From NCBI RefSeq assembly GCF_003464165.1, contig NZ_QSEK01000001.1, positions 62,001 through 126,000 on the forward strand: a stretch of DNA of 64,000 bases, in the 5' to 3' direction. Source of the DNA: Eubacterium sp. AM49-13BH. GTDB lineage: Bacteria > Bacillota > Clostridia > Lachnospirales > Lachnospiraceae. Shown here one piece after another: positions 22,066 through 50,397 of this stretch (position 1 is its first letter; every line of letters begins with the position of its first letter). Below the pieces are notes generated by a model. It searched no databases and was not told the origin of the DNA. It saw only the letters and a list, made by a program, of their open reading frames with translations. A program made the translations under genes and the position numbers.

Positions 22066-22098
22066 TAAGTATTAAGTGTGATATATGAGGATGTAAAA

Positions 22099-23798: not shown

Positions 23799-24866
23799 AT
23801 GCAGCAGAAGATAAAGCCGTATATAAAATGTCTGATATTTATAGCAGGATTGATAGTTATTGTGGCATTATCAGATTTCTTTTTTGCAAAAACGGGATAT
23901 ATTAATTATATAATCAGACAAGCAGATTCTAAAGAGAATAATGAGAATGTATTTATTCTTGGTGCATCACATGCGAGGTGTGCGATAGATCCGGCTGCTA
24001 TTGAGAAAAATTCGGATGACAGAGTATTAAATATGTCTATACCAGGAGAAACAATAAAAGATTCATATTATCTTATACAGGAACTTAACAGAACTAACGA
24101 TGTGGAAAAAGTTATACTGGATATAGATTATAACTACTGGTATGGAAATTTAGGTGAAGGATGTTTTGCTGAACCGTTTCTGTATAACCAGTATAGGTGG
24201 ACTTCACCGGTAAAATGGAAGTACCTGATTGAAAATACAGATATGATGGATTTCAGAAATGCATTTACTAAAAAATTTGTATATAAATACGAATTAGAAG
24301 ACATAAAAGCTAATGTGAAACAGAAAATGTCGAAAGACTATAAGGATGCCAATATATATTCACTTGATACAAGTGATGCAGGTGGTCCATATACAGGTAA
24401 GGGATTCTTTGCATTACCGCTTCCGGCAGGAAATCCAGTTGGAGAGGAATATGTCAAAGGTCAGATGGGGATTGAAAAACAAGATGTTAATCCTTATCCG
24501 GAAAAATATTTTAGAAAACTTGTCAAATATTGCAAAGATAATAATATTGACTTAGTCTGTGTGACATCACCTATAACACCATCAAGTAAAAAGAGACTTG
24601 GAATAGAAGAGGCTTACAGAAAGCTGGGACTCTTATTTGATGAACTTGGTGTCAGATATTATGATTTTAACTTATGCTTACAAGAAGTGTTAGAAACTAA
24701 AGATACAGATTTTATCGATAAAGAAGGACATATGGGAGGCGAACTTGCTTATAGATATTCAGCTGTATTAGCAGAGGTTCTTGAAGAGGATGAGAAAAAG
24801 ACGCTTGATACTTCAGATTATTTTTATGATACATATGAAAAGATGTATCAGAGTATAGGAGAATAG
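23799..24866 (+). CDS. SGNH/DltD-AlgX-like protein, partner of the MBOAT enzyme
   Basis: 355 aa. One N-terminal membrane anchor (about 10-30), then an extracellular SGNH-hydrolase-like domain: GASHAR with catalytic Ser57, DIDYNYWYG, a CVTSPITPSSK loop and a C-terminal DKEGHMGGELA with the D-x-x-H pair. Such proteins finish O-acyl transfer to glycans on the outside after an MBOAT protein moves the acyl group across the membrane. The stop is two bases before the MBOAT start. Related proteins at 48256 and 49333 belong to a second MBOAT set. Confidence 0.87.
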   Translation: MQQKIKPYIKCLIFIAGLIVIVALSDFFFAKTGYINYIIRQADSKENNENVFILGASHARCAIDPAAIEKNSDDRVLNMSIPGETIKDSYYLIQELNRTNDVEKVILDIDYNYWYGNLGEGCFAEPFLYNQYRWTSPVKWKYLIENTDMMDFRNAFTKKFVYKYELEDIKANVKQKMSKDYKDANIYSLDTSDAGGPYTGKGFFALPLPAGNPVGEEYVKGQMGIEKQDVNPYPEKYFRKLVKYCKDNNIDLVCVTSPITPSSKKRLGIEEAYRKLGLLFDELGVRYYDFNLCLQEVLETKDTDFIDKEGHMGGELAYRYSAVLAEVLEEDEKKTLDTSDYFYDTYEKMYQSIGE

Positions 24867-24868
24867 AT

Positions 24869-26461
24869 ATGTCATTCACAACAACAGTATATTTTGTGTT
24901 TTTATTAATAGGACTAGTATTTTATTATCTGATTCCTAAAAATTATAGATGGACAGTTCTGCTCGTTATGAGTTATATTTATTATCTGTCATATAGACTT
25001 AAGGCAGTAGTGTTTATTTTATTTACGACAATAACGGTTTATTTGTTAGGAATCATGCTTGAACGTATCCAGAATGGAGCTGATGCGTATCTGGCACAGA
25101 ATAAACAGGTGCTGTCACGAGAAGAAAAGAAAAGTTACAAGAATAAGATAAAGCATAAAAAAAGAATATATCTTGTTATTGCATTATTGCTTAATTTTGG
25201 AATGCTGGCAGCAATAAAGTATAGTGGATTTGCTATAAGTGGAGTTAATCATATATTAAGAGCTGTTGGAACTCAGAAACAGTTTTCATTATTTACAATA
25301 GCTGCTCCAATTGGAATATCTTTTTTTACATTTCAGGCAATGTCATATATAATTGATATATATCAGGGAAAATATGCATGCGAAAAAAATTTCTTTAAAT
25401 TTGCACTGTTTGTATCATTTTTTCCACAGATAATGCAGGGACCAATAGGAAGATATAACAGACTTGCGCCAACGCTTTTTGAGGGGAACAGCTATTCATT
25501 ACAGAATATCCAGTTTGGAATCCAGAGAATAGGATGGGGTATTTTTAAGAAACTTATTATGGCAGACAGGGCTGGAGTATTTGTAAATGCTGCATTTGCA
25601 GATAGCAACCAGTTTCATGGAATGATAAGAATAATAGGACTTCTTATGTATTCAGTACAGTTATATATGGATTTTTCTGGTGGAATTGATATAGTTATCG
25701 GTTCTGCACAGATGTTTGGTGTTCGTATGGACGAAAACTTCAGACAACCATATTTTTCTAAATCCATAGGAGAATTCTGGCGTAGATGGCATATTACACT
25801 GGGAACATGGATGAAGGATTACATATTCTATCCATTTTCTTTATCCAAGTGGTCTAATAAGGCTGCTAAATGGGGAAAGAAGCATTTAGGAGATCATCTT
25901 GGAAAAATGCTTCCAATATGTTTTGCCAATCTGCTTATATTCTTTATTGTTGGTGTATGGCACGGTTCAGAGGCAAGATATATTGTATATGGATTGTATA
26001 ATGGTGTTATAATTGCATTAAGTAATCTTTTATCCCCTGTTTATAAGAAAGGTTTTAAGGTGTTTCATATTAATTCTGAAAGCAGGATATGGAAGGTTTT
26101 TCAGATATTAAGAACATTTATACTTATAAATATAGGATGGGTATTTGATGTAAGTGTCAGCGGAATGCATAGCGCAATAACTACATTAAAGATGTTTATT
26201 GTAAATCTTGACTTTGCACAGGTAAATGCACAGACATTTGCTATAATTGGTTTGGAGACAAGAGATTATGTGATAATTGGAATAGGTTGCATAGTTGTCT
26301 TAATTGTCAGTATAATTAAAGAAATGGGAATTAATGTAAGAGAGGCTCTTGCGTTAAAGCCATTGCCAGTAAGATGGGCAGTATATTATGCATTTTTTGC
26401 TGCAATAATAATACTTAGTTATGTAACAGATAACAGTGGATTTATGTACGCGGCATTTTAA
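24869..26461 (+). CDS. MBOAT O-acyltransferase (first copy)
   Basis: 530 aa, about 11-12 helices, of the AlgI/DltB/PatB group that moves an acyl group through the membrane for polysaccharide O-acylation. Seen: FRQPYFSKSIGEFWRRWHITLG and the catalytic histidine in VGVWHGSEARY. Very similar to the second MBOAT at 46660 in these blocks. No adenylation enzyme or carrier protein lies beside this copy, so acetyl groups from the cytoplasm are the simplest cargo (inference). Confidence 0.93.
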   Translation: MSFTTTVYFVFLLIGLVFYYLIPKNYRWTVLLVMSYIYYLSYRLKAVVFILFTTITVYLLGIMLERIQNGADAYLAQNKQVLSREEKKSYKNKIKHKKRIYLVIALLLNFGMLAAIKYSGFAISGVNHILRAVGTQKQFSLFTIAAPIGISFFTFQAMSYIIDIYQGKYACEKNFFKFALFVSFFPQIMQGPIGRYNRLAPTLFEGNSYSLQNIQFGIQRIGWGIFKKLIMADRAGVFVNAAFADSNQFHGMIRIIGLLMYSVQLYMDFSGGIDIVIGSAQMFGVRMDENFRQPYFSKSIGEFWRRWHITLGTWMKDYIFYPFSLSKWSNKAAKWGKKHLGDHLGKMLPICFANLLIFFIVGVWHGSEARYIVYGLYNGVIIALSNLLSPVYKKGFKVFHINSESRIWKVFQILRTFILINIGWVFDVSVSGMHSAITTLKMFIVNLDFAQVNAQTFAIIGLETRDYVIIGIGCIVVLIVSIIKEMGINVREALALKPLPVRWAVYYAFFAAIIILSYVTDNSGFMYAAF

Positions 26462-31069: not shown

Positions 31070-31115
31070 CTGGTTGTATGTGTAATTACACATGGATAAG
31101 GAAGATGGTATTTTT

Positions 31116-35332: not shown

Positions 35333-35355
35333 ATGCAGATATAAAGGGAAGGTAA

Positions 35356-36933
35356 ATGTCTATGATATGTTATAAGGGAAAGGTTCTTACAGTAGACAGC
35401 AATGATACAGTAGCCGGTTATCTCGTTGAGGATAAAGGAAGAATCGTGTATGTTGGTAATGAACTGCCAGAACAGTATAAGAATGTGCAGACAGTTGAAC
35501 TTGGAAAGAAGGTGCTGGTTCCGGCATTCGTAGATACACATCAGCATATGGCATCATTTTCTACATTTCACGCAGGACTTAATGTTATGGATGCAGAGTC
35601 CAATGAAGAGATTGCACAGATGGTTAAAGAATTCGTGCAGTCAAGCGGTAATAAAAAGACACTTATAGCATTCGGTGCGTCACCATATTCAGTTAAAGAA
35701 GGAAGACTTATAAGCAGGGAAGAATTAGATAAGGTATGCCCTGATAAGGAAATCATGGTTGTCAAATATGATGGACATGCGTGCATAATTAACAGCAAGC
35801 TTCTTGATAAGCTGAAGGGGAAAGTAAGTAAGTTAAGAGGTTATCACGAAGATACCGGTGAGATGAATCAGGAGGCATTCTTTGAATGCTCTGATTACAT
35901 TACTAATTCACTTTCTATTATTGAACTGTTTAAGAATATGCAGATTGCCATTGATTTTCAGGCGTCTCATGGAATTGGCTGTATTCATACTGTAAGTGGT
36001 GTGGGTTTTACAGGCAATCTTGATATTACATTTGAAAAAATATTTGCAAAATCCTTAACTAATGGATTTCAGGTAAGAGTATTCCCACAGTCAATGAATG
36101 TTGATGTCGCATTAAAGAGAAAACTGCCAAGAATAGGCGGGTGTTTTGAATGTGCGCTTGACGGATGCTTCGGTTCACACGATGCAGCTATGAATGAACC
36201 ATATATTGATTCTTTAGGCGGTGACGGAGTACTTTATTATGATGATGAAAAGGTTATTGATTTCTGCAAGAAGGCTAACAGAGCCGGACTGCAGATAGAG
36301 ATGCATGCGATTGGGGATAAAGCATTTGACCAGGCATGCAGGGCACTTAAGGCGGCACTTGACGATTATCCAAGAAAAGACCACAGACATGGAATTATAC
36401 ATGACTGTCTTCCAACTGAAGAGGGAATTAAGATATGCAGGGACTATAATATACAGATGCCTGTACAGAGTGCTTTTATTAACTGGAAACAGGAACCTGA
36501 TGAGTATCTTGAAAGTATTATGGGTAAAGAAAGAACAGAAAGGCTTAATCCGCTCAGAACATTTAATGAGAATGGAATAGTTGTTTCGTGCGGTTCTGAT
36601 GCTCCATGTACATCACCGGATCCTATCGTATGGATTGACAAAGCTGTTAATAATATGAATCAGTCTCAGGCAGTATCGGTTCAGGAAGCACTAAGGATGT
36701 GTACATATAATGGATATTATGTAACATTTGACGAGAAAGAAAGAGGAAGCCTTGAGGCAGGAAAGATTGCCGATATGGTGGTTCTTTCAGATGATTTGTA
36801 TTCAGTTGACAAGAAGGATATAAAGAACATTAAGGTAGAGGGACTTATACTTTCGGGGAAAAAGTATGAATCATGCAGAGAAAATGTAATCAAAGCAGTG
36901 ATTCGAGGAATGTTCTCAGGAAACATGGCATAA
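35356..36933 (+). CDS. YtcJ-like amidohydrolase
   Basis: 525 aa, metal-dependent amidohydrolase (TIM barrel). Seen: FVDTHQHMASF (HxH metal pair), IEMHAIGDKAFD, HRHGIIHDC, CGSDAPCTSPDP (metal Asp) and the C-terminal AGKIADMVVLSDD. A second ATG at 35362 has better spacing to GGGAAGG and may be the true start. This family deacylates or deformylates N-substituted amides. Between two LicC-type genes it might free an amine from an amide before activation (inference). Cytoplasmic, no signal peptide. Confidence 0.87.
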   Translation: MSMICYKGKVLTVDSNDTVAGYLVEDKGRIVYVGNELPEQYKNVQTVELGKKVLVPAFVDTHQHMASFSTFHAGLNVMDAESNEEIAQMVKEFVQSSGNKKTLIAFGASPYSVKEGRLISREELDKVCPDKEIMVVKYDGHACIINSKLLDKLKGKVSKLRGYHEDTGEMNQEAFFECSDYITNSLSIIELFKNMQIAIDFQASHGIGCIHTVSGVGFTGNLDITFEKIFAKSLTNGFQVRVFPQSMNVDVALKRKLPRIGGCFECALDGCFGSHDAAMNEPYIDSLGGDGVLYYDDEKVIDFCKKANRAGLQIEMHAIGDKAFDQACRALKAALDDYPRKDHRHGIIHDCLPTEEGIKICRDYNIQMPVQSAFINWKQEPDEYLESIMGKERTERLNPLRTFNENGIVVSCGSDAPCTSPDPIVWIDKAVNNMNQSQAVSVQEALRMCTYNGYYVTFDEKERGSLEAGKIADMVVLSDDLYSVDKKDIKNIKVEGLILSGKKYESCRENVIKAVIRGMFSGNMA

Positions 36934-36946
36934 GGAGATATGTATA

Positions 36947-38706
36947 ATGAGAAAAGAAGAGTTTTATGTATTGAACAGTTTGTATAATGGAAGCATTGGA
37001 AGAGCTGGCTGCACTTATGATGTTGAGGAGACAAAAGCTCTTAATGACACAGATATTTATAATAAACTTGTAAAAACAGGGTATATTGAAAAAGAGTCTG
37101 GTAGTATTACAAAGACTGGATTAGAGGCGCTTGAACCATACAGGGTTAATAATGCCGTTATTCTTGCAGCTGGCGCATCTACACGATTTATTCCTTTATC
37201 ACTCGAACAGCCAAAGGGTCTTTTTGAAGTAAAGGGTGAACGTCTTATTGAGAGACAGATAAAGCAGCTTCAGGATGCTGGTATTAAGAATATTACAGTT
37301 GTACTTGGCTATAAGAAGGAGATGTTTTACTATCTTGAAGACAAGTATGGTGTAAAGTTCATTATTAATGATTCATTTAATATAAAGAATAATATTGAAA
37401 GTCTTTATCTTGCAAGAAAAGAACTTAAGAATACGTACATATGCGTAAGTGACAGTTATTATATAGAGAATCCGTTTAATCAGTTTGAATATCATACATT
37501 TTATTCAGGTTATTATGGAAAGGAAACAACAGATGAAGTATATGCAAGAGCTGATGGATTTGGAAAGATAACAAGAATTGCTAAGGATAATAAGATTGAT
37601 GGCTATGTTCTTATGGGACATTCATTCTGGAGAAAAGAATTCTCAGAAGCATTTATTAATCAGGTTGAGGCTGTCCGGGAATCTGGAATATATAATAACT
37701 GCTATTGGGAGATTCTTGTAAAGGATAAGCTGGATGAAATGCCTGATATTTATTTTAAGGAATATCTTCCGGGTAATATATTTGAATTTGATTATTTTGA
37801 TGAGCTTAGAAAGTTTGATTCACAGTATCTTGGACATACGCACAGTGAGATAATAAGAAATATCAAGCTTGTATTCAGATGTGATGAGGAAGATATAATT
37901 GATTTCAGAAATGTAAGCGAAGGAATGACCAACACATCATTTATATTCAAGATTGACGGAGTTGATTATATATATAGGCATCCGGGCGATGGAACAGAAA
38001 GTATAATCAATAGAAGAAATGAAAAAAAATCACTTATCAAAGCCAAAGAAGCAGGTGTAGATCCTACATACATATATGCAGATGTTAATGAGGGCTGGAA
38101 GATATCCATATTCATTCCAGAATTCAGAGAACCTGATTATAATTCTTTTGAGGACTCAAAGAAGATATTGGCTGTTTTAAGAAAGCTGCATAAGGCAGAT
38201 ATAACAGCTGATTATGGAATGAAACCTTGGGAAGATGCACTTGATATGGAGAAGCTTCTTGAGAAGAAAGATCCTGTGTGCTTCGTTCAGTATGAAGGAC
38301 TTAAGAACAGCATAGGACAGTTGTATAAGATGACTCTTGGAGATGGTATTGAAAAATGCTTCTGTCATGGAGATACATATAAGCCGAACTGGATGATAAG
38401 ACCGGATGGAAGTGTCATACTTATTGACTGGGAGTATTCTGGATATTCTGACCCGGGAATTGATGTTGGATATTATGTGGTTGATGCCATGTATGATTTT
38501 GATAAGGCTGAGGAATTCATAAAGGAATACCTCAGGAAGATTATAATGAGACAACAAGATTTCATTATATGGCATATATTGCTATTATTGCGTACTACTG
38601 GTTTGTATGGGCTATGTACAGGGAATCATGTGGTGCAGATATGGGAGAGGCATTGGAGAACTGGCGAGACATGGCAGTTAAATATGCTGAGTACCTTTTG
38701 AAATAA
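36947..38706 (+). CDS. Winged helix-LicC nucleotidyltransferase-LicA kinase fusion, C-terminal frameshift
   Basis: Three domains: a winged helix (1-65), a LicC-like nucleotidyltransferase (70-290; ILAAGASTRFIPLSLEQPKG, NNIESLYLARKEL, CVSDSYYIEN) and a choline/ethanolamine-kinase-like domain (310-586; CHGDTYKPNWM catalytic loop, LIDWEYSGYSDPGID metal site). One polypeptide could phosphorylate an amino alcohol and activate it as a CDP derivative. The frame is lost near 38536 (AGGAAGAT); adding one base gives DYNETTRFHYMAY and YYWFVWAMYRES and ends at 38706, the normal kinase tail. As read it ends at 38701 with an unrelated tail. Confidence 0.9.
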
Positions 38707-38908: not shown

Positions 38909-40810
38909 ATGGAAATATTATCGACAGCCTTAGGTTATGTAATGAATTTTTGTTACAAATTGCTGCATGATTATGGATTGGCAATTATATTATTCACTCT
39001 GATAAGTAAGATTGTTCTCTTACCTGTATCAATCTGGGTACAGAAGAATTCAATTAAAATGGTTAAGATGCAGCCTGATATTAACAGGATTTTTATTAAG
39101 CATTATGGGGATAAGGATGAGATAGCAGAGGAACAGTCTAAGCTTTATAAAAAAGAAAAATATAATCCACTGGCATCACTTATACCTCTTATTATACAGA
39201 TAATACTTCTGCTTGGAGTTGTTGCAGTTATCAAAGACGGAATTAATGAAGGTGTTGCGAACATGAAGTTCTGTGGCTATGACCTTACATGGATTACTAC
39301 AAAACAGTGGGGATTATCAATAATAACACCAATTATAGCAGGTGTCTCAGCATGGCTTTTATGTGTTGCACAGAATGCAAGTAACGTATTACAGGCAGAA
39401 CAGAGTAAGCTTAATAAGTATGGTATGATGATATTTTCAGTAGGTCTGTCGTTATATTTAGGATGCTTTGTATATGCAGGAGTAGCTCTTTACTGGACTG
39501 CCAGCAACATATTTGCAATTCTTCAGTTATATCTTCTTAACTGGGCGATTAATCCTAAGAATTATGTTGATTATGAGGCTCTTGAGGAAACTAAGAAAGA
39601 ACTTGCAGAGATTGAAGCTCTTGGTACGAAAAAAGGTAAAAGAAACAAAGAAGATATTAAGAGAGAAAAAGCTGATTATAAAAAGTTTTTCTCTGTTGTT
39701 AATAAACATCTTGTCTTCTATTCAGAGGGCTCAGGTTTTTATAAGTATTTTAAAGGGATAATTGAATACATACTTAATAATACGAATATTACAATTCATT
39801 ATGTAACAAGTGATCCAGATGATCAGATATTCAGAATTGCAGAAAAAGAAAGTAAGATTAAACCTTATTATATAGGGGAAAAGAAACTTATAACACTTAT
39901 GATGAAGATGGATGCAGATGTTGTTGTTATGACTATGCCTGATATTGAGAATTATCACATTAAGAGAAGTTATATCAGAAAAGATATTAATTATGTTTAT
40001 GTTCCTCATGGCATGGACAGCCTTAATATGACAATGCGAACCGGATCAATGGATCATTATGACTCTGTATTATGTACAGGAAAGATTCAGAAAGAAGAAA
40101 TAGAAAAAACTGAAGAAGTGTATAATCTTCCTAAGAAGGAGCTTGTCGAGTGGGGATATTCATTGCTTGATGAGATGCGTGAGGATTATGCAAAGATGCC
40201 AAAGAAGGAAAATGATATTAAGTCAATACTTATTGCTCCATCATGGCAGAAAGATAATATTGTAGACAGCTGTCTTGAGGACATACTTGATAATCTTAAG
40301 GGACATGGTTATAAGATTACAGTCCGACCACACCCACAGCATGTAAGACATATGCCTGAGAAGATGGAAGGACTTAAAGAAAGATATAAGGATGATACAG
40401 ATATAGAGATTCAGACTGATTTTTCATCAAACAGTACTGTTTTTGAGGCAGATCTTATGATTACAGACTGGTCAGGTATAGCATATGAATATGCTTATAC
40501 TACATGTAAACCGGTTCTTTTCATTGATACACCAATTAAGATAATGAATCCTGAATACAAAAAGATTGGAATTGAGCCACTTAATATATGGATGAGATAT
40601 GAAATCGGGCGTGTACTTAAGCTTGATGAAATTGATAAGACAGCTGATACAGCAGCAGAGATGCTGGCAGCTTCTGATACATATAAGGACAGCATAGACA
40701 GATTTGTTAAAGAATATGTGTATAATCTTGGCAGTAGTGCATCGGTTGGAGCTAAATATATTATTCAGGAAATTCAAAAAGCAATTAAAAGACATAAGGA
40801 ACAAGAGTAA
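38909..40810 (+). CDS. YidC/Oxa1-like membrane domain fused to a TagB/TagF-type glycerophosphotransferase
   Basis: 633 aa from the ATG at 38909 (AGAGGAG seven bases upstream). Residues 1-215 match a YidC insertase core: YGLAIILFTLISKIVLLPVSI, a KYNPLASLIPLIIQI segment and YLGCFVYAGVALYWTASN. The conserved groove arginine of YidC appears as lysine (ISK). After a charged linker, residues about 260-633 match CDP-glycerol glycerophosphotransferases: VPHGMDS, TVRPHPQHV, QTDFSSN and LMITDWSGIAYEYA. The fusion would tether a CDP-alcohol phosphotransferase to the membrane. CDP-activated amines from the LicC enzymes nearby are possible donors (inference). Confidence 0.88.
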   Translation: MEILSTALGYVMNFCYKLLHDYGLAIILFTLISKIVLLPVSIWVQKNSIKMVKMQPDINRIFIKHYGDKDEIAEEQSKLYKKEKYNPLASLIPLIIQIILLLGVVAVIKDGINEGVANMKFCGYDLTWITTKQWGLSIITPIIAGVSAWLLCVAQNASNVLQAEQSKLNKYGMMIFSVGLSLYLGCFVYAGVALYWTASNIFAILQLYLLNWAINPKNYVDYEALEETKKELAEIEALGTKKGKRNKEDIKREKADYKKFFSVVNKHLVFYSEGSGFYKYFKGIIEYILNNTNITIHYVTSDPDDQIFRIAEKESKIKPYYIGEKKLITLMMKMDADVVVMTMPDIENYHIKRSYIRKDINYVYVPHGMDSLNMTMRTGSMDHYDSVLCTGKIQKEEIEKTEEVYNLPKKELVEWGYSLLDEMREDYAKMPKKENDIKSILIAPSWQKDNIVDSCLEDILDNLKGHGYKITVRPHPQHVRHMPEKMEGLKERYKDDTDIEIQTDFSSNSTVFEADLMITDWSGIAYEYAYTTCKPVLFIDTPIKIMNPEYKKIGIEPLNIWMRYEIGRVLKLDEIDKTADTAAEMLAASDTYKDSIDRFVKEYVYNLGSSASVGAKYIIQEIQKAIKRHKEQE

Positions 40811-40833: not shown

Positions 40834-42645
40834 ATGCAGGCAATTATTTTAGCAGCGGGAATGGGAAAGCGTTTAAAGGAACTTACCCAGAATAATACCA
40901 AATGTATGGTAAAGGTTAATGGAGTATCGCTTATAGACAGGCTTTTGCATCAGCTTGAGAAACAACATCTCTCAAGAATAGTGATTGTTGTGGGCTATGA
41001 AGGACAGAAGCTGATTGATTATATAGCGACATTGGGAATTAAGACACCAATTTCATATATTGATAATGCGGTATATGATAAGACAAACAATATTTATTCA
41101 CTTGCGCTGGCAAAGAATTATCTTATGGAAGAAGATACTCTGCTTTTTGAATCAGATGTAATTATTGAGGATTCTGCAATTGATGAACTTGTAAAAGATC
41201 CGAGAGATATACTTGCCATGGTAGATAAATATGAGAGCTGGATGGATGGTACATGTGTAAAGCTTGACGAATATGATAATATTGTTGCATTTGTTCCAGG
41301 AAAGAGCTTTGATTTTAAGGAAAAAGAGGAATACTATAAAACTGTAAATATCTACAAATTCAGCAAACATTTTTCACAGGATATATATGTTCCTTTCCTT
41401 GAGGCATATTGTAGTGCATTAGGAGAAAATGAATATTATGAACAGGTTCTTAGAGTTATAACGATGCTGGACACACCTGGAATTAAAGGTATGAGATTAT
41501 CAGGTCAGAAATGGTATGAAATAGATGATGAACAGGATCTTGATATAGCAACAACACTTTTTGCTCCAGATGATGAGACAAGAATTAACCTTATGCATAA
41601 AAGATATGGAGGATTCTGGAGATATCCGGGATTGTTGGATTTCTGTTATCTTGTTAATCCTTATTATCCGCCTAAAAAGCTTAAGGATGAACTGCGTGCA
41701 AGCTTTGATACACTTTTGACAGAATATCCTTCAGGTATGGGAGTTAATTCTTTACTTGCAGCTAAGAATTTTGGTGTTCATAAAGACAACATAATAGTTG
41801 GAAATGGAGCCGCAGAACTTATTAAGTCACTTATGGAGAGCTTTTCTGGAAAGACAGGCGTTATCAGACCTACATTTGAAGAATATCCTAACAGATATGC
41901 TGTTGAAGACGAAGTGGTATTTACACCGTCAAATGATAATTATACATATTCAGTTGAAGAACTGATAGAGTTCTATACATGCAACAAAGTAGATAATATT
42001 ATTATTATTAATCCTGATAATCCATCTGGTAATTATCTGAAAAAGGAAGAAATTATAAGATTAATAAAATGGACAGACAGTCAGGGAATAAAGCTGGTGG
42101 TTGATGAGTCATTTGCTGATTTCTCAGATGAACCGGATAATTCTCTTATAGAACAGAAATTTATCGAAACATATAGAAGATTATATGTTATGAAAAGTAT
42201 ATCTAAATCATACGGTGTACCGGGACTGAGGCTTGGAATCCTTGTTTCCTCAGATACAGCAGCGATTGCAGCAATGAAAAAAGATGTTGCAATATGGAAT
42301 ATTAATTCATTTGGAGAGTATTATCTTCAGATTGCAGAAAAGTATAAGAAAGATTATGCAGCTGCAATGGACAAATTCCGCGTAGAAAGAAAAAGGTTCT
42401 ATAATGAACTGGAGCAGATATCTGGTATAAGAGTTATCCCATCACAGGCTAATTATTTTATGATTGAGATAACTAATGGAATGACAGCAAAAGAACTTAT
42501 GATAAAACTGTTTAAGAATCATTATCTGCTTATAAAGGATCTTACATCAAAAGTACATGATGGAAAACAGTATATAAGAATTGCAATCAGAAATGATGCA
42601 GATAACAACAAGATGCTTGAAGCATTAAAAAAGGAACTTAATTAA
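40834..42645 (+). CDS. LicC-like nucleotidyltransferase fused to a fold-type-I PLP enzyme (aminotransferase/CobD-like)
   Basis: 603 aa. Residues 1-235: nucleotidyltransferase (ILAAGMGKRLKELTQNNTKC, NAVYDKTNNIYSLALA, FESDVIIED). Residues 240-603: a PLP domain like histidinol-phosphate aminotransferase or the threonine-phosphate decarboxylase CobD, with NGAAELIKSL, INPDNPSGN, VVDESFADF and Schiff-base Lys458 in SISKSYG. CobD-like enzymes decarboxylate serine or threonine phosphate, so the fusion could turn an amino-acid phosphate into a CDP-activated amino alcohol. This is inferred; transamination cannot be excluded. Start after AGGAGGGG. Confidence 0.88.
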   Translation: MQAIILAAGMGKRLKELTQNNTKCMVKVNGVSLIDRLLHQLEKQHLSRIVIVVGYEGQKLIDYIATLGIKTPISYIDNAVYDKTNNIYSLALAKNYLMEEDTLLFESDVIIEDSAIDELVKDPRDILAMVDKYESWMDGTCVKLDEYDNIVAFVPGKSFDFKEKEEYYKTVNIYKFSKHFSQDIYVPFLEAYCSALGENEYYEQVLRVITMLDTPGIKGMRLSGQKWYEIDDEQDLDIATTLFAPDDETRINLMHKRYGGFWRYPGLLDFCYLVNPYYPPKKLKDELRASFDTLLTEYPSGMGVNSLLAAKNFGVHKDNIIVGNGAAELIKSLMESFSGKTGVIRPTFEEYPNRYAVEDEVVFTPSNDNYTYSVEELIEFYTCNKVDNIIIINPDNPSGNYLKKEEIIRLIKWTDSQGIKLVVDESFADFSDEPDNSLIEQKFIETYRRLYVMKSISKSYGVPGLRLGILVSSDTAAIAAMKKDVAIWNINSFGEYYLQIAEKYKKDYAAAMDKFRVERKRFYNELEQISGIRVIPSQANYFMIEITNGMTAKELMIKLFKNHYLLIKDLTSKVHDGKQYIRIAIRNDADNNKMLEALKKELN

Positions 42646-42880: not shown

Positions 42881-42895
42881 TAAATGAATTTTCAG

Positions 42896-42922
42896 GACGC
42901 CGTTTCAACACGGCGTCTTTTT
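42896..42922 (+). terminator. Rho-independent terminator after the 72-aa gene
   Basis: GACGCCGT/ACGGCGTC stem (8 bp, perfect), a 6-base loop and a TTTTT run. Confidence 0.92.
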
Positions 42923-42989: not shown

Positions 42990-43490
42990 ATGAGTAACAA
43001 TACAGATAATAATATGCAGGAAATTAAGCCGGATATATTTGATAAGATTATGCATCTGCCGGGTCTGAGGGTGTTTGAACCATTGTATAAGAAGTATAAG
43101 GAAGTACTTCTGTATCTTTTCTTTGGAGTACTTACAACAGTGGTGAGTATAGGTTCATATGCATTCTTTAATGTTACACTTGGAATTAATGAGCTTATTG
43201 CAAATGTTATTTCATGGGTGCTTGCAGTACTTTTTGCATTCTTTACTAACAGGATATGGGTGTTTGCAGCACCAACTAAGACTGTGGAAGAATTTATGAA
43301 ACAGTTAGTTTCATTTGCAGGTGGAAGAGTATTAACTCTTGTAATTGAGGAGATAATTCTTCTTGTATTCATTACAATGCTGCATTTCAACAGTATGTTA
43401 ATAAAGTTTATTGCGCAGGTGGTTGTAATTATACTTAATTATGTTATAAGCAAGCTGCTTGTATTCAGAAAAGATAAGAGTAAGAAGTAA
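42990..43490 (+). CDS. GtrA-family membrane protein
   Basis: 166 aa with four helices. The signature is YLFFGVLTTVVSIGSYAFF near the first helix and FFTNRIWVFAAP between helices 2 and 3. GtrA proteins are thought to flip polyprenyl-phosphate sugars or assist glucosyl or arabinosyl transfer to cell-wall glycans. GAGG ribosome site. It precedes the adenylation gene by 12 bases and is likely co-transcribed, though its job may belong to the GTs. Confidence 0.9.
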   Translation: MSNNTDNNMQEIKPDIFDKIMHLPGLRVFEPLYKKYKEVLLYLFFGVLTTVVSIGSYAFFNVTLGINELIANVISWVLAVLFAFFTNRIWVFAAPTKTVEEFMKQLVSFAGGRVLTLVIEEIILLVFITMLHFNSMLIKFIAQVVVIILNYVISKLLVFRKDKSKK

Positions 43491-43502: not shown

Positions 43503-45062
43503 ATGGAAAAGAATGTATTAGAGTTTCTTGAAAACTCACAGAGAATGTATGGGGAAAAGACAGCGTGTGCGGACATGAATAATGAACTTACATACACACA
43601 GCTTATGAATCAGGCAAAGTTCATAGGAAGCTGTCTCTCACTTAAGATTAAGCCTACACAGGGAGTTCCTGTGTATATGGATAAGACATGTAATACATTA
43701 TCTTTATTTATGGGAATTGTGTATGCAGGCGGATATTACTGCATGCTTGATACAACTCATCCGGCTGAGAGAATTAATCTTATATTAGATACGATTAAGG
43801 CAGATATTCTGGTTGTAGATAATAAGTCAGCCAAGAAAGCAGAAAAGCTCGGATTTCAGGGCGAGATTATTAATCTTGACGAATTACTTGAAGAATACGA
43901 TGGACAGGCTGTGGATTCAGAGGCTCAGGAAAGACTGGGAAAGATAAGAGAACAGGCACTTGATACAGATCCTCTGTATTCAATCTTTACATCAGGTTCA
44001 ACAGGAGTTCCTAAGGGAGTTATTGTCAATCACCGTTCAACAATAGATTTTATTGATTGCTTTACGGAAACATTTGGAATTACTAATGAGGATGTTATAG
44101 GTAATCAGGCACCTTTTGACTTTGATGTATCAGTTAAGGATATATATTCAAGTTTAAAGACAGGCGCAACCTTACAGCTCATTCCTAAGATGTGCTTCTC
44201 ATTTCCAACCAAGCTGCTTGATTTCCTTGATGACAGAAAGGTTACAACTATTATATGGGCTGTATCAGCGTTATGTATTGTAACAACTCTTAATGGATTC
44301 GAGTATAAGAGACCATCTTCACTTAACAAGATTATGTTCAGCGGAGAGGTTATGCCTATAAAGCATCTTAATGCATGGAGAGTGCAGTATCCGGATGCAA
44401 TGTTTGTTAATCTTTACGGACCAACAGAGATAACATGTAATTGTACATATTATGTTATTGACAGAGAGTTTGGTCTTGACGAGAAGCTTCCGATGGGAAA
44501 GCCATTTGCCAATGAAAGAGTATTCCTGTTAGATGACGAGGATAAGCTTGTTGATGCAGGCAGACCAGGAGAGTTAGGAGAAATATGTGTATCTGGAACA
44601 GCTGTAACCATGGGGTATCTGCGTAATCCTGAAAAGACAGCAGCAGCATTTGTACAGAATCCTCTTAATGACAGATATCTGGAAACTATATACCGCACAG
44701 GTGATCTTGGTTACTATAGTGAAGACGGTGAACTTTTCTTCTCATCTAGAAAAGACTTCCAGATTAAGCATATGGGACACAGAATCGAGCTTGGCGAAAT
44801 TGAGACATACATGAATGCTATAGAGGGACTCCTTAGAAGCTGCTGTATATTTGATACAGATGAGAATAAGATTCTCGGATTCTTTGAGATAGAAGGAGCA
44901 AGTGAGCTTGACAGAAAGGGCGTAACACATGCCCTCAAAGATAAAGTGCCACAGTGGATGATTCCAAATGTGCTTGTTAAGGTGGAAACAATGCCTCTTA
45001 CTAAGAATGGTAAGATTGACAGAAAAGAACTTATGAAGATATATAAAGAACAGGAGGCATAG
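43503..45062 (+). CDS. DltA-like amino acid adenylation enzyme
   Basis: 519 aa ANL-family enzyme that activates an amino acid as AMP ester and loads it onto a carrier protein. Motifs: FTSGSTGVPKGV (P-loop, near 160), QAPFDFDVSVKDIYSS, NLYGPTEITCN, YRTGDLGYYSEDGELFF, GHRIELGEIE and the C-terminal lysine in NGKIDRKEL. The length equals DltA (about 505). It is followed at once by a PLP enzyme, a carrier, an MBOAT protein and two SGNH proteins. That order differs from classical dltABCD and suggests another amino acid or its decarboxylated form. Confidence 0.92.
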   Translation: MEKNVLEFLENSQRMYGEKTACADMNNELTYTQLMNQAKFIGSCLSLKIKPTQGVPVYMDKTCNTLSLFMGIVYAGGYYCMLDTTHPAERINLILDTIKADILVVDNKSAKKAEKLGFQGEIINLDELLEEYDGQAVDSEAQERLGKIREQALDTDPLYSIFTSGSTGVPKGVIVNHRSTIDFIDCFTETFGITNEDVIGNQAPFDFDVSVKDIYSSLKTGATLQLIPKMCFSFPTKLLDFLDDRKVTTIIWAVSALCIVTTLNGFEYKRPSSLNKIMFSGEVMPIKHLNAWRVQYPDAMFVNLYGPTEITCNCTYYVIDREFGLDEKLPMGKPFANERVFLLDDEDKLVDAGRPGELGEICVSGTAVTMGYLRNPEKTAAAFVQNPLNDRYLETIYRTGDLGYYSEDGELFFSSRKDFQIKHMGHRIELGEIETYMNAIEGLLRSCCIFDTDENKILGFFEIEGASELDRKGVTHALKDKVPQWMIPNVLVKVETMPLTKNGKIDRKELMKIYKEQEA

Positions 45063-45063
45063 A

Positions 45064-46302
45064 ATGTTAGGAGTTAATGAATTAAAAGAGATTGCCATAA
45101 AATGTGGAACACCATCGTATATATTTGACACAGATGAGCTATGTGCAAGGATTGATGCCATTCAGCAGATTCTAGGATGTGGAGTTACAGTGTGTTATGC
45201 AATGAAGGCCAATCCGTTTCTTATAAGCGTGCTTGACAAGAAGCTTGATAAATTCGAGGTATGTTCTCCAGGTGAATTTGCAATATGCGAAAAAGAGGGC
45301 ATAAACAGGGAGAAGATAGTCCTTTCGGGTGTTAATAAGGAAAAGAAAGATATCCTCTACACAATGAAGACAGGTGCTGTTGGAATCTACACTGTGGAAT
45401 CGCTTAACCAGCTTGAACTTATCAATTCATGTGCAGTTGAGTGTGGTATTAAAGTTAAGGTCCTTATAAGAGTTACAAGCGGCAACCAGTTCGGTATTAA
45501 TGAGCGTCAGGTATATGAGATTGCAGACAGAAAGGATGAACTTAAGGGAATTATTATTGAGGGAATCCAGTGCTATTCGGGAACACAGAAGAAAAAATTA
45601 AGCCAGATAGAGTCAGAGGTTGTGTGGTTACAGGCAATAGCACATACATGTGAGGCTGAACATGGTGTTAAGCTTAATGAGATTGAATATGGACCAGGTC
45701 TTTCAGTCGATTACTTCGTTACAGATAAATGTGATGCAATGAATACTGATTTTGACGAGCTTAAAGAGTTTGCTGCGATGATTAAAGAAATGTCCGAAAA
45801 ATTCAATGTTACTCTTGAGATGGGGCGATATATTGCAGCTACCTGTGGAGTTCTTATAAGCAGAATTGCTGATATGAAGATGAATGACACAACAAGATAT
45901 GCAATTATTGACAGCGGAATTAATCATATTAATTATTATGGACAGGCTATGGCTATGAAGAAACCAAGATGTGAATTCATTCCAATGGAGTACACAGAAG
46001 AGTTTGCTGATGGCGTAGATCATGATGTGGAAGTGTACTCACAGGGAGTGCAGCCATATAACATATGCGGTTCATTATGTACAGTAGGAGATGTAATTGT
46101 TAAGAATCTTGAATTAAAGGATGCTAAGATTGGTGATATGATAGCGTTTTATAATATTGGTGCATATTCTGTCACAGAGGGAATTTATCTTTTCTTAAGC
46201 CGCAGAATGCCGGCAATTGTGATGTATTCTAAGAAAAATGGTTACAGAGTTATAAGAAAACCTATTGAAACATTTTTAATAAATAGCAGTAATACACAAT
46301 AA
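45064..46302 (+). CDS. Fold-type-III PLP enzyme, diaminopimelate/ornithine decarboxylase-like
   Basis: 412 aa. Alanine-racemase-type barrel with PLP Lys48 in CYAMKANP, the QFGIN substrate strand, GIQCYSGTQ (phosphate loop region), EMGRYIAATCG and a C-terminal ICGSLCTVGDV plus GAYSVTEG. The usual diaminopimelate decarboxylase CES motif reads CTV here, so the glutamate that reads the distal amino acid group is missing and diaminopimelate is unlikely to be the substrate. Only one base separates it from the adenylation gene. It probably makes, or acts on, the group loaded onto the carrier (inference). Confidence 0.88.
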   Translation: MLGVNELKEIAIKCGTPSYIFDTDELCARIDAIQQILGCGVTVCYAMKANPFLISVLDKKLDKFEVCSPGEFAICEKEGINREKIVLSGVNKEKKDILYTMKTGAVGIYTVESLNQLELINSCAVECGIKVKVLIRVTSGNQFGINERQVYEIADRKDELKGIIIEGIQCYSGTQKKKLSQIESEVVWLQAIAHTCEAEHGVKLNEIEYGPGLSVDYFVTDKCDAMNTDFDELKEFAAMIKEMSEKFNVTLEMGRYIAATCGVLISRIADMKMNDTTRYAIIDSGINHINYYGQAMAMKKPRCEFIPMEYTEEFADGVDHDVEVYSQGVQPYNICGSLCTVGDVIVKNLELKDAKIGDMIAFYNIGAYSVTEGIYLFLSRRMPAIVMYSKKNGYRVIRKPIETFLINSSNTQ

Positions 46303-46328
46303 TTTTACAATTTTGTAACAAAATATGA

Positions 46329-46357
46329 TTGACTATATGCGAATGAGAAGATAGAAT
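46329..46357 (+). promoter_or_regulatory. Internal promoter upstream of the carrier-protein gene
   Basis: TTGACT (46329-46334), 17 bp and TAGAAT (46352-46357) in the 109-bp gap before the carrier-protein gene. This would let the carrier, MBOAT and SGNH genes be made apart from the enzymes upstream. Confidence 0.65.
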
Positions 46358-46411
46358 GTTTTCTGTTCACAGATGTGTGATCAATAGATTTTAATATTTG
46401 CGAGGTTTATT

Positions 46412-46636
46412 ATGGATCAGTTATTAGACATTTTGAATGAAATTAACAGTGATGTGGATTATGAAATTTGTGATACTCTTATCGATGATGGTATATTCAG
46501 CTCATTTGATATTGTATCACTTGTTGGTGAGTTAAACGATGCATTTGACATCGATATCACACCAGTTGATATAGTACCTGAGAACTTTAATTCAGCAGAA
46601 GCTATGTGGGAGATGATTCAGCGTCTGCAGGATTAA
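46412..46636 (+). CDS. Acyl/aminoacyl carrier protein (DltC-like)
   Basis: 74 aa four-helix carrier. The phosphopantetheine site is the serine in GIFSSFDIVSLV (Ser31 by alignment to the D-S-F/L-D rule). Strongly acidic, as expected. GAGG lies upstream. Placed after the adenylation and PLP genes and before an MBOAT gene, it should carry the activated aminoacyl group to the membrane enzyme, as DltC does. Confidence 0.9.
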   Translation: MDQLLDILNEINSDVDYEICDTLIDDGIFSSFDIVSLVGELNDAFDIDITPVDIVPENFNSAEAMWEMIQRLQD

Positions 46637-46659
46637 TCCGGAAAGCGGGGTAAAATAAT

Positions 46660-48249
46660 ATGTCACTAGTTTCTACCGGATTTCTGGTATTTTTATTAGT
46701 GGGAGTAATTGTATATTATCTTATACCTAAGAAGGCACAGTGGGCATGGCTTTTGATATTAAGCTATGCCTACTATTTATGTTCGGGATATAAGACGGTT
46801 GTATTTATATTACTTACAACAATTGTTACTTTTACATCAGGAATCCTTTTAGAGAGAACAGAGGATAATCTTGCCAGGAGCCTTAAAGCAGAAGGGCTTG
46901 CAAGAGAGGATAAAAAGGCTTTAAAAGAAAAGGCAAAGACATATAAAAAGAGGGTTGTAGTTATTGCTCTTCTTCTGGTATTTGGTGTGCTTGCAGTTGT
47001 TAAGTACCATAATTTTGCGATTGAGAATGTTAATGGCATAATTAAGGCATTTGGTGGCAATGGCAGGATATCAACATTTACACTGCTTCTTCCACTTGGA
47101 ATATCTTTCTATTCATTCCAGTCGATATCATATGTTATTGATGTATACAGAGGCAAGGTAAAGGCATGTAATAACATTTTTAAATATGCTTTGTTTGTTT
47201 CGTATTTTCCTCAGATAACACAGGGACCTATCGGGAGATATGACAGACTTGCACCACAGTTTCTGGCAGAGCACAAGTATGATCTTGCAGTTATCCAGCA
47301 TGGATTGCAGCGTATGGCCTGGGGACTTTTCAAAAAGTTCATTATAGCTGACCGTGCAGGAGTCGTGTCTGATCTGGTATTTAATAATCCAGGCCAGTAT
47401 CATGGAATATATGTAATAATAGGCGTTCTAGCGTATTGTGCACAGCTATACGGAGATTTTGCCGGTGGAATCGATATGGTTATGGGTGCTTCCGAGATGT
47501 TTGGAATCCACCTGGATGATAATTTCAGGCAGCCATTCTTCTCTCATTCTATTGGAGAGTTCTGGCGCAGATGGCACATAACACTTGGTACATGGATGAA
47601 GGATTATGTGTTCTATCCGTTCAGCCTGAGTAAAGCCATGAATAAGCTGGGTAAGTTCTTCAAGAAACACAGCAAAACAAGATTTGGTAAATATATGGCG
47701 AAGGCATTGCCTATATGTCTGGCAGATTTACTCATATTCTTTATAGTAGGTGTATGGCATGGGGCAGCATGGAAGTATATCGTATATGGTATGTACAATG
47801 GTATAATCATGAGCTTTAGCAGTATTATGGCACCTGTTTATGAAAAAATGTTTAAAATAACACATATTAACAAGACTGCACGCTGGTACAGAGGATGGCA
47901 GATAATAAGAACATTTATACTTGTTAATATAAGCTGGTATTTTGATAACGCAGCTACTCTTACAGATGCATTCAGACTTATGGGAAATACATTTAAACAT
48001 GCATCATTCAGCATGGATGCAGTTGTAAAAATGTCTGGAAGCCAGCTGGATTTGATTATATTACTTGCAGGCTGCTTTGTATGGCTTATTGTAAGCATAC
48101 TTAAAGAGAAAGGCATTGTAATCAGGGAAGCTCTTGACAGAAAGCCGCTGATTATCAGATGGGCTGTATATATAGCTCTTGTTATGTCGGTTGCAATGCT
48201 TGGCTATATTTCTAATACATCGGGTGGATTTATGTACGCCCAGTTCTAA
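46660..48249 (+). CDS. MBOAT acyltransferase (second copy, DltB-like position)
   Basis: 529 aa, about 11-12 helices, a close paralogue of the MBOAT at 24869: both have FWRRWHITLGTWMKDY and VGVWHG with the catalytic histidine (here VGVWHGAAWKY). It follows the carrier gene by 23 bases. In Dlt systems this protein takes the aminoacyl group from the carrier and moves it across the membrane, so here the cargo is probably the group activated by the 43503 enzyme. Confidence 0.93.
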   Translation: MSLVSTGFLVFLLVGVIVYYLIPKKAQWAWLLILSYAYYLCSGYKTVVFILLTTIVTFTSGILLERTEDNLARSLKAEGLAREDKKALKEKAKTYKKRVVVIALLLVFGVLAVVKYHNFAIENVNGIIKAFGGNGRISTFTLLLPLGISFYSFQSISYVIDVYRGKVKACNNIFKYALFVSYFPQITQGPIGRYDRLAPQFLAEHKYDLAVIQHGLQRMAWGLFKKFIIADRAGVVSDLVFNNPGQYHGIYVIIGVLAYCAQLYGDFAGGIDMVMGASEMFGIHLDDNFRQPFFSHSIGEFWRRWHITLGTWMKDYVFYPFSLSKAMNKLGKFFKKHSKTRFGKYMAKALPICLADLLIFFIVGVWHGAAWKYIVYGMYNGIIMSFSSIMAPVYEKMFKITHINKTARWYRGWQIIRTFILVNISWYFDNAATLTDAFRLMGNTFKHASFSMDAVVKMSGSQLDLIILLAGCFVWLIVSILKEKGIVIREALDRKPLIIRWAVYIALVMSVAMLGYISNTSGGFMYAQF

Positions 48250-48255
48250 TCAGAG

Positions 48256-49340
48256 GTGCAGGATACCATGAAGAAGAAAGCATTTAGAGAGATATTAAAA
48301 TATGTGAGGGTGATAGTATTCTTTGCGGTTATAACTATACTTGTTGAAGCGGTTAATTATGTAATGGTTCAGCCGGGGTATGCAAGATATATAATCCATA
48401 CAGTTGACAATCCGGATGATGGCTCTGATTATGATTGCATTGTAGTGGGAGCTTCACATGGAAGGCTTCAATTGACCCACATTATTTTCTGGAAATGGAA
48501 TATGCAGTTAATCCAATTAATATGTGTATTCAGGGCGCCACGGTTATTGATAATTATTATATGATCAGAGAAGCGTGCAATAATAATGACGTAAAGAAGA
48601 TAATTCTTGAACTTGATTATCAGTACTGGAATAAGAATCTGAAACGTGATTCGGATTTTGGAGATCTTCTTGTATATGGGCAGCTTCCGTTTACAAGTCT
48701 TAAAATGGAGTATATAGTAAGCCAGCTTATGGATAAAGACTTCAGGACAATATATTTCAGAAGATATGCATTTGCAAAAAATTGGAAAACGGCTAAGAAA
48801 TATATGGCTATAAAGAAGACTGATGAATATAAGAATTTCCAGATTGAGGGTGTTGCCGGAATTGATACAGAAGGACCATATCAGGGATTGGGATTTTTCT
48901 ATCGAACCAAGGTAACTGATAAGAAGGGAAAGCTTAATCCATCATCATGGACATATGATGATCTTAATCCTAAGGTGCAGAAATATTTTCAGAAGATAGT
49001 TAAGTATTGTAAGGACAATGGAATTGAGCTTATATGTGTTACTGCACCAATTCCACCATCGTCGGTTGTTTCGGGTGGTGCCAATGAGGCTGATACATAT
49101 TTTAGGCAGATATGTGATGAGAATAATGTAAGGTATATAGATGGCAATCTTATTAAGAATGAGATTCTTAATGTAAGTGATGATGATTTCTCTGACTGGG
49201 AAGGCCATATGAACGGAGAGCTTGCTGAGCAGTTCTCAGAGGTACTCACAGATATACTTAAAAAGGATGATTGTTCAGAATATTTTTACAGCAGTTATGA
49301 TGAGTGCATAGAGGCAATTAAAGCGAGGGGCAATGAGTAA
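48256..49340 (+). CDS. SGNH/DltD-like protein, split by a one-base frameshift
   Basis: First piece 48256-48564 (anchor helix, then VVGASHGR), second piece in another frame to 49340. Near 48465 GGAAGGCT lacks one base: with it the protein reads GASHGR/K-ASIDPHYFLEMEY, the expected continuation after the catalytic serine. The repaired length is about 361 aa, like the paralogues. It carries YWNKNL, CVTAPIPPSSV and SDWEGHMNGE (D-x-x-H). It overlaps the next SGNH gene by 8 bases. Probably intact in the organism. Confidence 0.87.
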
Positions 49341-50397
49341 TAGAATATTAAAATATGTCAGGGCTGTGGTGTTTATTGCCATAGTGGCCGGGCTTATCAA
49401 ATGTATGGATTATGCGATGATGCCATCAGGCTATATAAGATACATTATACATGAGGCTGACAATGCAGATACTGATGAAGGATATGACAATATAATAATT
49501 GGAGCTTCACATGCAAGATCTGCTATAAATCCAGTAAAGCTCGATGAAGCCGGGGCATCTGACAATGCATTTAATCTTGCAATACCAGGCGAGACTGTAA
49601 CGGATTCATATTATCTTTTAATGGAGAGTGACAGACATAATAATGTAAAAAGAGTTATATATGACCTTGATTATCAGTACTGGTGCAATTATGCAGAGAG
49701 GGAGTTTGAAGACTGTTTCATATACACATGGCTTCCTTTCAGTAATGTAAAGCTTAAGTATATAGCTGATAATCTGCTCACAAAGGATTTTCGTACGGTA
49801 TATTCAAAGAGATGGGCTTATGAGATATCACCGTCTGCTATTATGAATAATCTTAAGGTTAAGAACAGCGCGGCGTACCGCAACTACAGTATGGATGCAG
49901 TTGAGATACATGATGCCGGAGGACCTTATTCAGCCAAAGGATTTTTCTATAGAGATATGAAGATGGACAGCCTCGTGCCATCTGATATTGTTGCATGGGA
50001 TGAGAGTGGAATCAGTGATAAGGTTCTGGATTCATTTGAAAAGACTGTCCAATATTGTAAGAAGAATAATATTGAACTGGTATGCGTTACATCACCTATT
50101 ACGCCGACAACATCAGTTAACGGTTATTCGGAACAGGCAGGAGCGTATTTTACGAGGCTTTGTGAAGAATATGGTGTTGAATATTATGATTTCAATCTGT
50201 TAACAATGGATACACTTCCAAGAACAGATGATGACTTCTTTGATGAAGAAGGTCATATGCTTGGAGAACTTGCCGACAGATATTCAGATATACTGGCATC
50301 AGTTCTTCTTGACAAATGTGACAAAAGTACCGCTTTTTATGGTACTTATGCACAGTTAGAGCTGGCAGTTTATGAAAATTATGTGACAAAACAGTGA
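49333..50397 (+). CDS. SGNH/DltD-like protein (third SGNH copy)
   Basis: 354 aa, intact: N-terminal anchor (about 8-25), IIIGASHARSAINP with the catalytic serine, DLDYQYWCNYA, CVTSPITPTTS and FDEEGHMLGELADRY. More like the 23799 protein in some blocks (GASHARxAIxP, IPGETxxDSYYL) than like its direct neighbour. Two SGNH proteins for one MBOAT suggests two acceptors or a heterodimer. Last gene of the Dlt-like set. Confidence 0.9.
   Translation: MSNRILKYVRAVVFIAIVAGLIKCMDYAMMPSGYIRYIIHEADNADTDEGYDNIIIGASHARSAINPVKLDEAGASDNAFNLAIPGETVTDSYYLLMESDRHNNVKRVIYDLDYQYWCNYAEREFEDCFIYTWLPFSNVKLKYIADNLLTKDFRTVYSKRWAYEISPSAIMNNLKVKNSAAYRNYSMDAVEIHDAGGPYSAKGFFYRDMKMDSLVPSDIVAWDESGISDKVLDSFEKTVQYCKKNNIELVCVTSPITPTTSVNGYSEQAGAYFTRLCEEYGVEYYDFNLLTMDTLPRTDDDFFDEEGHMLGELADRYSDILASVLLDKCDKSTAFYGTYAQLELAVYENYVTKQ

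Follow-up and report, generated by a model that had tools for sequence, protein, structure and literature searches.

We report here on a stretch of 64,000 nucleotides from the gut bacterium Eubacterium sp. AM49-13BH (Lachnospiraceae; contig NZ_QSEK01000001.1, positions 62,001 to 126,000), hereafter the window, and in particular on an operon within it that resembles the Dlt system of surface aminoacylation but includes a gene for a pyridoxal phosphate (PLP) enzyme of the decarboxylase type (Table 1). A sequence-only reading of the same DNA had proposed such a Dlt-like route, and the genes that it named, for an adenylation ligase, the PLP enzyme, a carrier protein, an MBOAT, and SGNH proteins, are all present on the plus strand. 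It had counted two SGNH proteins; SGNH2 is intact, whereas a frameshift divides SGNH1 in the window; relatives (genome G001 and other loci) have it unbroken. G001 is the nearest genome among those compared, having 25% of the window's sampled words in common. The transcription unit probably starts further upstream than that reading placed it, with the GtrA gene at 42990: a terminator-like hairpin (42894-42919) lies just 5' of this gene, which also adjoins the ligase gene in G001 and in loci L002-L005. A promoter scan gave a result little above that for shuffled sequence (51 versus a mean of 44.4). Downstream, tRNA-Leu comes next after SGNH2. Close relatives of the PLP enzyme bear the names Eubacterium sp. 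AM46-8 (99% identity) and AF22-9 (96%).

Table 1. Genes of the operon and related genes in the window; positions are those of the window
Feature	Position	Strand	Remarks
GtrA-family membrane protein	42990..43490	+	Pfam PF04138, 76 bits; likely first gene of transcript
Adenylation ligase	43503..45062	+	AMP-binding domain, 204 bits; DltA models matched below cut-off
Fold-III PLP enzyme, predicted BtrK-like aminoacyl-carrier decarboxylase	45064..46302	+	K48, YSGTQ, EMGR, LCTV, GAY
DltC-like carrier protein, 74 aa	46412..46636	+	Weak DltC model match
DltB-like MBOAT	46660..48249	+	WHG motif, C-terminal FMYAQF, DltB structure match
SGNH1	48256..49340	+	Frameshift-split: open reading frames 48256-48564 and 48435-49340
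SGNH2, SGNH protein with N-terminal helix	49333..50397	+	Conserved residues, AlphaFold model
SGNHb, partner of MBOATb	23799..24866	+	40% identity to SGNH2 (alignment)
MBOATb, second DltB-like MBOAT of cluster	24869..26461	+	Ends FMYAAF; neither ligase nor carrier gene directly adjoining

The PLP enzyme has the N- and C-terminal Pfam domains of the ornithine/diaminopimelate/arginine decarboxylases. Against the LysA model TIGR01048 it scores 174.3 bits, far below the cut-off of 297.9, while all 10 of the LysA control rows scanned (from 25) exceed that cut-off. LysA carries the motifs HIGSQ, CES, and RPxLY, which have roles in binding diaminopimelate; the PLP enzyme has YSGTQ, CTV, and NYYGQ in their places, the CTV at the catalytic Cys agreeing with what the sequence-only reading had noted. 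The Thr of GTQ is found in 46/46 cassette rows (which include two repeats of other rows) versus Ser at that site in 25/25 LysA rows, and the residue following the catalytic Cys is Thr in 44 of the 46 versus Glu in all 25. The Cys itself is present in 45 of 46 cassette rows, the exception (L079) being cut off by the contig. G001 separately encodes a diaminopimelate decarboxylase-like gene with CE and RPxxY motifs that scores 276.3 bits, just below the LysA cut-off, as well as an nspC above its own cut-off. Judged by its sequence, the PLP enzyme of the operon is no ordinary LysA; the housekeeping LysA role that the earlier reading had kept as the alternative was rejected on the sub-cut-off score, the different motifs, the passing controls, and the separate gene of G001. 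When a profile of the PLP family (33 sequences) is compared to the PDB, BtrK (2j66, 208.1 bits) and 7ru7 (207.8) come out on top, followed by SbnH (184.5) and the best diaminopimelate decarboxylase (180.7), with alanine racemases last (22.7). By this family profile BtrK, which decarboxylates the L-glutamyl carrier of the butirosin pathway, appears to be a better fit for the enzyme than the diaminopimelate decarboxylases are; the window protein alone scores higher against the diaminopimelate decarboxylase 2p3e (106.5) than against BtrK (80.6), and structural Z gives no separation of the two. At one locus (L113:4716-8057) the PLP decarboxylase lies in a single uninterrupted open reading frame (ORF) with immunoglobulin-like repeats and a transglutaminase domain.

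The sequence-only reading had raised the question whether the PLP gene is constantly linked to such operons, and the linkage proves near constant. Among 43 relatives of the PLP enzyme, gathered by a protein search and from a 100-genome family sample (27 genomes with a match), same-strand neighbors include a ligase gene for 41 and a carrier gene for 40 (both within 3 kb), an MBOAT gene for 37 (within 6 kb), and an SGNH gene for 31 (within 9 kb); this gene order is not chance. Some of the misses fall at contig ends (L063, L073, and L079), and the carrier gene of L064, at 3.1 kb just outside the 3-kb limit, would be the 41st. Genomes G243, G157, and G192 have the ligase-PLP-carrier triad away from any MBOAT gene and near genes that look like housekeeping genes by eye; each carries elsewhere an MBOAT 51-54% identical to that of the window.

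The decarboxylase is paired not only with a ligase but with particular ligase pockets. The pocket of the window ligase reads DVKWMSLCNK (D208, V209, K212, W252, M278, S280, L304, C312, N313, and K504). A first set of 36 PLP-linked ligases (repeats of refetched loci removed, L091 and L102 set aside, and short ligases such as L016, L017, L068, L070, and L078 left out) has the pattern DVKWxSxCN in 34; the exceptions are L081 (DIKWLSLCNK) and L113 (DAKWAVLGVK), the latter being the locus whose PLP enzyme is fused to a transglutaminase-domain protein. L091 has the pocket DVKWLSLCNK with no PLP gene seen alongside, and its genome, G150, has a PLP gene. Pockets of other types are found in the seven ligases of the first set that have no PLP gene, and in their seven genomes the PLP profile found nothing at 1e-30. 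Two full-length ligases read later, L134 and L140, have the pocket IARWCSQASK.

A later set of 115 ligases was drawn from order- and class-level samples, which have genomes in common with one another and, in a few cases, with the family sample; scoring took in the best 5 or 6 candidates per genome. Left out of the set were ligase ORFs shorter than 440 or longer than 700 aa, rows with no difference across residues 61-300, and four loci from genomes that had been used before. Within the set, 15 ligases have both a neighboring PLP gene and DVKWxSxCN, 94 have neither (about half of the later-set loci span 1.5 kb on each side, so that more distant PLP genes would escape), four have a neighboring PLP gene and IARW[CL]SQASK, and two have DVKWxSxCN with no PLP gene alongside; both genomes of these last two carry a PLP gene elsewhere. 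Across the 291 genomes of the class sample, an alignment search for the PLP enzyme retrieved 9 genomes and a separate one for the ligase retrieved 51. The DVKWxSxCN pocket occurs in exactly the same 9 genomes as the PLP enzyme, pockets having been read in 48 of the 51 ligase genomes (G630, G536, and G773 have ligase fragments only); under random assignment such a coincidence has a chance of ∼6e-10, though related genomes are not independent. The five mapped IARW loci (L134, L140, and L270-L272) all have the order ligase, carrier, PLP. By eye, neighbors of the IARW cassette in L270 and L271 resemble surface-polysaccharide genes.

These ligases extend well beyond the decarboxylase-linked types. 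At 1e-120 the cassette-ligase profile matches ligases in 67 genomes of the order sample (295 genomes) and 51 of the class sample (291 genomes). Of the later set, 96 ligases have no PLP gene alongside; 89 of these have a carrier gene nearby and 71 both carrier and MBOAT genes, and the 96 show 31 different ten-letter pockets, the commonest being DAKWAGLGMK (41 ligases). In a tree of the first-set ligases, to which the later set does not belong, PLP-less members nest within PLP-bearing ones, and loss or replacement of the decarboxylase is therefore possible in the former. The whole has the look of a family of envelope aminoacylation systems that has diversified, with the PLP-bearing types as two of its branches.

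Two DltA models match the window ligase below their cut-offs (TIGR01734, 289.1 bits versus 559.85; NF003417, 301.2 versus 476). The D-alanine pocket has Leu236 and Cys301, where the window ligase has Val (V236) and Ser (S301). Five DltA-type rows served for comparison, three with the pocket DLMSLCTVAK and one each with DLMSLCTVCK (L086) and DLAPYCASAK (L087); only L083 and L084 among them exceed the DltA cut-off. The tree places the ligase outside this group with branch support of 100/100. The stretch DLMSLCTV, shared by four of the five, includes the Cys (C269 in Bacillus cereus DltA) that excludes L-Ala, according to PMC11253843. One genome, G231, holds both the cassette and a DltA above the cut-off (576.5 bits). 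A plain D-alanine system, with which the sequence-only reading had contrasted its proposal, was rejected because the pocket is unlike that of DltA and the ligase scores lie below the cut-offs.

The pocket of the PLP-linked ligases is distinctive at V236, S301, C330, and N331. V236 and S301 resemble bulkier residues in VinN, F231 and S299, and the A236V change of a beta-Phe-specific TycA (PMC11253843). The shortened VinN loop is not present in the window ligase. In the second PLP-linked pocket, IARWxSQASK, the amine-binding Asp235 is missing and position 239 is Arg. As far as pocket residues can indicate, both types fit activation of a carboxyl without a neighboring alpha-amine. A word search of the main text of PMC12283262 did not retrieve the DVKW pocket code.

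The remaining operon proteins would carry and export the loaded group. The carrier matches the DltC model NF003464 weakly (29.9 bits versus a cut-off of 68), and its PDB matches, also weak, are aminoacyl and D-alanyl carrier proteins; by resemblance, the Ser within GIFSSFD is the likely phosphopantetheine site. The MBOAT matches the DltB structure 6bug (E 5.7e-24), and the dltB model scores it at 176 bits versus a cut-off of 375; it has both the WHG His and the C-terminal Tyr motif. The last residues fit Y..[FY] in 33 of 36 MBOAT ORFs, and in 17 of these they fit the strict FXYXXF; of the other three, one has the motif slightly short of its end, and two are pieces of ORFs that are split. The C-terminal FXYXXF of MBOATs is an acyl-shuttle peptide that in classical Dlt is carried by DltX (PMC12148441). 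To judge from these termini, the cassette unites a carrier with an MBOAT-fused shuttle peptide. In SGNH2, G57, S59, G203, and H308 are invariant and D304 near-invariant over 33 sequences. Its AlphaFold model (predicted local distance difference test, pLDDT, 87.9) has an SGNH fold, with DltD and PatB among many esterase structural matches. Pfam has no family for SGNH2 or for the SGNH1 piece 48435-49340, nor does PHROGs for SGNH2.

The reading that we favor, and hold to be somewhat probable, is Dlt-like surface acylation in which a dicarboxylic amino acid loaded through its side chain is decarboxylated on the carrier, and the resulting omega-amino acyl ester is exported. The ligase would adenylate the side-chain carboxyl of the amino acid, most likely L-Glu or L-Asp, and load it onto the carrier phosphopantetheine. 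The PLP enzyme would then remove the alpha-carboxyl from the carrier-bound residue, in the way that BtrK acts on BtrI-S-glutamate (PMC7857480), to yield an omega-amino acyl thioester (gamma-aminobutyryl or beta-alanyl). Through the MBOAT the acyl group would cross the membrane and reach the Tyr in that protein's own C-terminal FMYAQF, from which the SGNH Ser would accept it and esterify an extracellular polymer, probably a teichoic-acid-like or phosphocholine-bearing polysaccharide of the surrounding cluster. The MBOATb/SGNHb pair may use the same carrier; the G001 counterpart of MBOATb is 51% identical to the operon MBOAT. Of all this, the sequence itself establishes the domain make-up, the gene linkage, the non-DltA pocket, the BtrK-like motifs, and the shuttle peptide, whereas the substrate, whether loading precedes decarboxylation, the product, and the acceptor are inferred. 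The group added is thus taken to be probably something other than D-alanine, and to this extent the earlier suggestion of an amine or rare amino acid stands; its free amine, which offers the ligase no carboxyl to adenylate, gives way to a dicarboxylic amino acid that would lose its alpha-carboxyl while bound to the carrier.

An alternative that we consider unlikely is that decarboxylation comes first, the PLP enzyme acting on a free amino acid (e.g. Glu to gamma-aminobutyrate, GABA, or Asp to beta-alanine) and the ligase then loading the product. Several points favor it and weigh against on-carrier decarboxylation. Linkage alone leaves the order of steps unfixed. For iso-linked Glu and MeAsp, adenylation domains carry a cationic residue at 239, and Lys239 was considered as a mark of two-carboxyl substrates special to the PLP-linked ligases; it is not distinctive, Lys or Arg being found there also in 70 of the 96 ligases without a PLP gene alongside, and it was dropped as such a mark. 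Lys239 need not imply a two-carboxyl substrate, and its wide occurrence in PLP-less ligases makes us less sure of our reading and of the broader extension given below, and surer of this alternative. There is also a precedent, since in incednine IdnL3 turns beta-glutamate into 3-aminobutyrate (3ABA), the substrate of IdnL1 (PMC11284099). On the other hand, the closest solved relative by family profile is the carrier-dependent BtrK, the amine-binding Asp235 is lost in the IARW pocket, and VinN loads 3-methylaspartate (3-MeAsp) and refuses its decarboxylated product, 3-aminoisobutyrate (3AIB), VinO acting on the carrier-bound form (PMC11284099).

Two further alternatives strike us as quite improbable. 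The PLP enzyme might be a racemase or epimerase setting the configuration of a loaded residue that is attached as a D-amino acid, which would accord with its alanine racemase fold family (Ala_racemase_N, 37.2 bits) and with the D-amino acid used by classical Dlt; yet it has the decarboxylase C-terminal domain and the near-universal catalytic Cys described earlier, and alanine racemases stand at the bottom of the PDB profile list (22.7 versus 208 bits for BtrK). It is equally doubtful that the loaded, decarboxylated unit is bound for a soluble natural product and not for a surface polymer: the triad does lie away from MBOAT genes in three genomes, but these have a related MBOAT gene elsewhere, MBOAT and SGNH genes accompany most of the 43 loci, and the window cassette lies inside a surface-polysaccharide cluster. 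Hardly credible at all, and in part refuted, is a plain D-alanylation operon in which the lysA-type gene is a stray, which the dlt-like four-part layout and the matches of both enzymes to DltA and LysA models might suggest, given the sub-cut-off scores of both enzymes beside passing LysA rows, the different pocket, PLP linkage in 43 loci, the DltA above cut-off that G231 has in addition to its cassette, and the diaminopimelate decarboxylase-like gene and nspC of G001.

Several known systems share parts of the arrangement. Both models of the exosortase-A-associated ligase and PLP decarboxylase pair match the cassette enzymes, with scores far below their cut-offs (TIGR03098, 191.5 versus 592.35; TIGR03099, 168.7 versus 478.45), and membership in that system was rejected for this reason. 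In the butirosin system the ligase, BtrJ, is an ATP-grasp enzyme and the product enters an antibiotic, whereas the cassette uses an adenylation enzyme and its product probably passes to the MBOAT. BtrI/BtrJ/BtrK nonetheless share with the cassette a fold-III PLP decarboxylase with a CT motif, which acts there on carrier-bound Glu (PMC7857480). VinN/VinL/VinO and FlvN are alike in that an adenylation enzyme loads a dicarboxylic residue as a beta-amino acid on a stand-alone carrier, with PLP decarboxylation then taking place on the carrier (PMC11284099; VinO is compared by description rather than sequence); they differ in feeding a polyketide and in the shortened beta13-14 loop of VinN. Dlt itself has the stand-alone ligase, small carrier, DltB-like MBOAT, and SGNH protein in one operon, and draws its acyl group from a carrier thioester (PMC12148441). 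The cassette departs from it in its non-DltA pocket and extra decarboxylase-type enzyme, in an SGNH protein only distantly like DltD, and in a shuttle peptide that is fused to the MBOAT rather than on DltX, although no search was aimed at a separate DltX-like microprotein. PatA/PatB and other MBOAT-SGNH O-acyltransferases also pair a C-terminal FXYXXF with an SGNH partner (PMC12148441), but their donor is acyl-CoA, while in the cassette the carrier protein is the likely donor.

The sequence-only reading had ranked the operon as a candidate for an undescribed system. On-carrier decarboxylation is already known, from butirosin (BtrI/BtrK) and vicenistatin (VinN/L/O); its union with Dlt-type export looks new. 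Among the open-licence literature matches listed, titles and abstract openings describe no decarboxylase in a Dlt-like operon, and no description of GABA- or beta-alanine-type wall esters was found. A more tentative extension, to which we give a little less than even chances, is that Clostridia and their kin hold a large pocket-diversified Dlt-like family whose DVKWxSxCNK and IARWxSQASK branches employ an on-carrier decarboxylase, giving surface polymers that bear esters of non-alpha amino acids (GABA or beta-alanine). D-alanylation is the textbook route to positive wall charge in Gram-positive bacteria. If the proposal is true, then wall charge, antimicrobial-peptide tolerance, and immune recognition in a major gut group rest on unexplored chemistry, and the automatic names DltA-like and diaminopimelate decarboxylase (the latter used by some sources here) are wrong.

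Other genes of the surrounding cluster also merit mention. A LicC-like nucleotidyltransferase is fused to a PLP enzyme (40834-42645) that is closest to CobD, the threonine-phosphate decarboxylase (173.6 bits versus a cut-off of 290.55); the fusion, which recurs in G001, L004, and L269, might convert phosphoserine or phosphothreonine to CDP-ethanolamine or CDP-aminopropanol. In an odd pairing, 38915-40810 joins a YidC-type membrane insertase domain to a TagF-like CDP-glycerol glycerophosphotransferase domain, a fusion that recurs in L004 and G001. Two LicC-like nucleotidyltransferases with an amidohydrolase in between occupy 34412-38701, the first having a MarR-like N-terminus (below cut-off) and the second being fused to choline kinase. 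Together with genes that are LicD-like by eye (17291-18133 and 19397-20275), the LicC-like and choline kinase genes suggest phosphocholine decoration. At or near the cassette in seven other loci (L007, L014, L017, L129, L132, L138, and L139) is a clustered gene family whose two scanned members (L014 and L132) are response regulators; in L014, L017, and L129 a second family comes next, with a histidine kinase as its scanned member (L014). These matches led us to reject phosphopantetheinyl transferase as the identity of the gene cluster. Two membrane proteins of the window with a sulfatase-type domain (22078-23748 and 31092-32780) are possibly phosphoglycerol or similar transferases.

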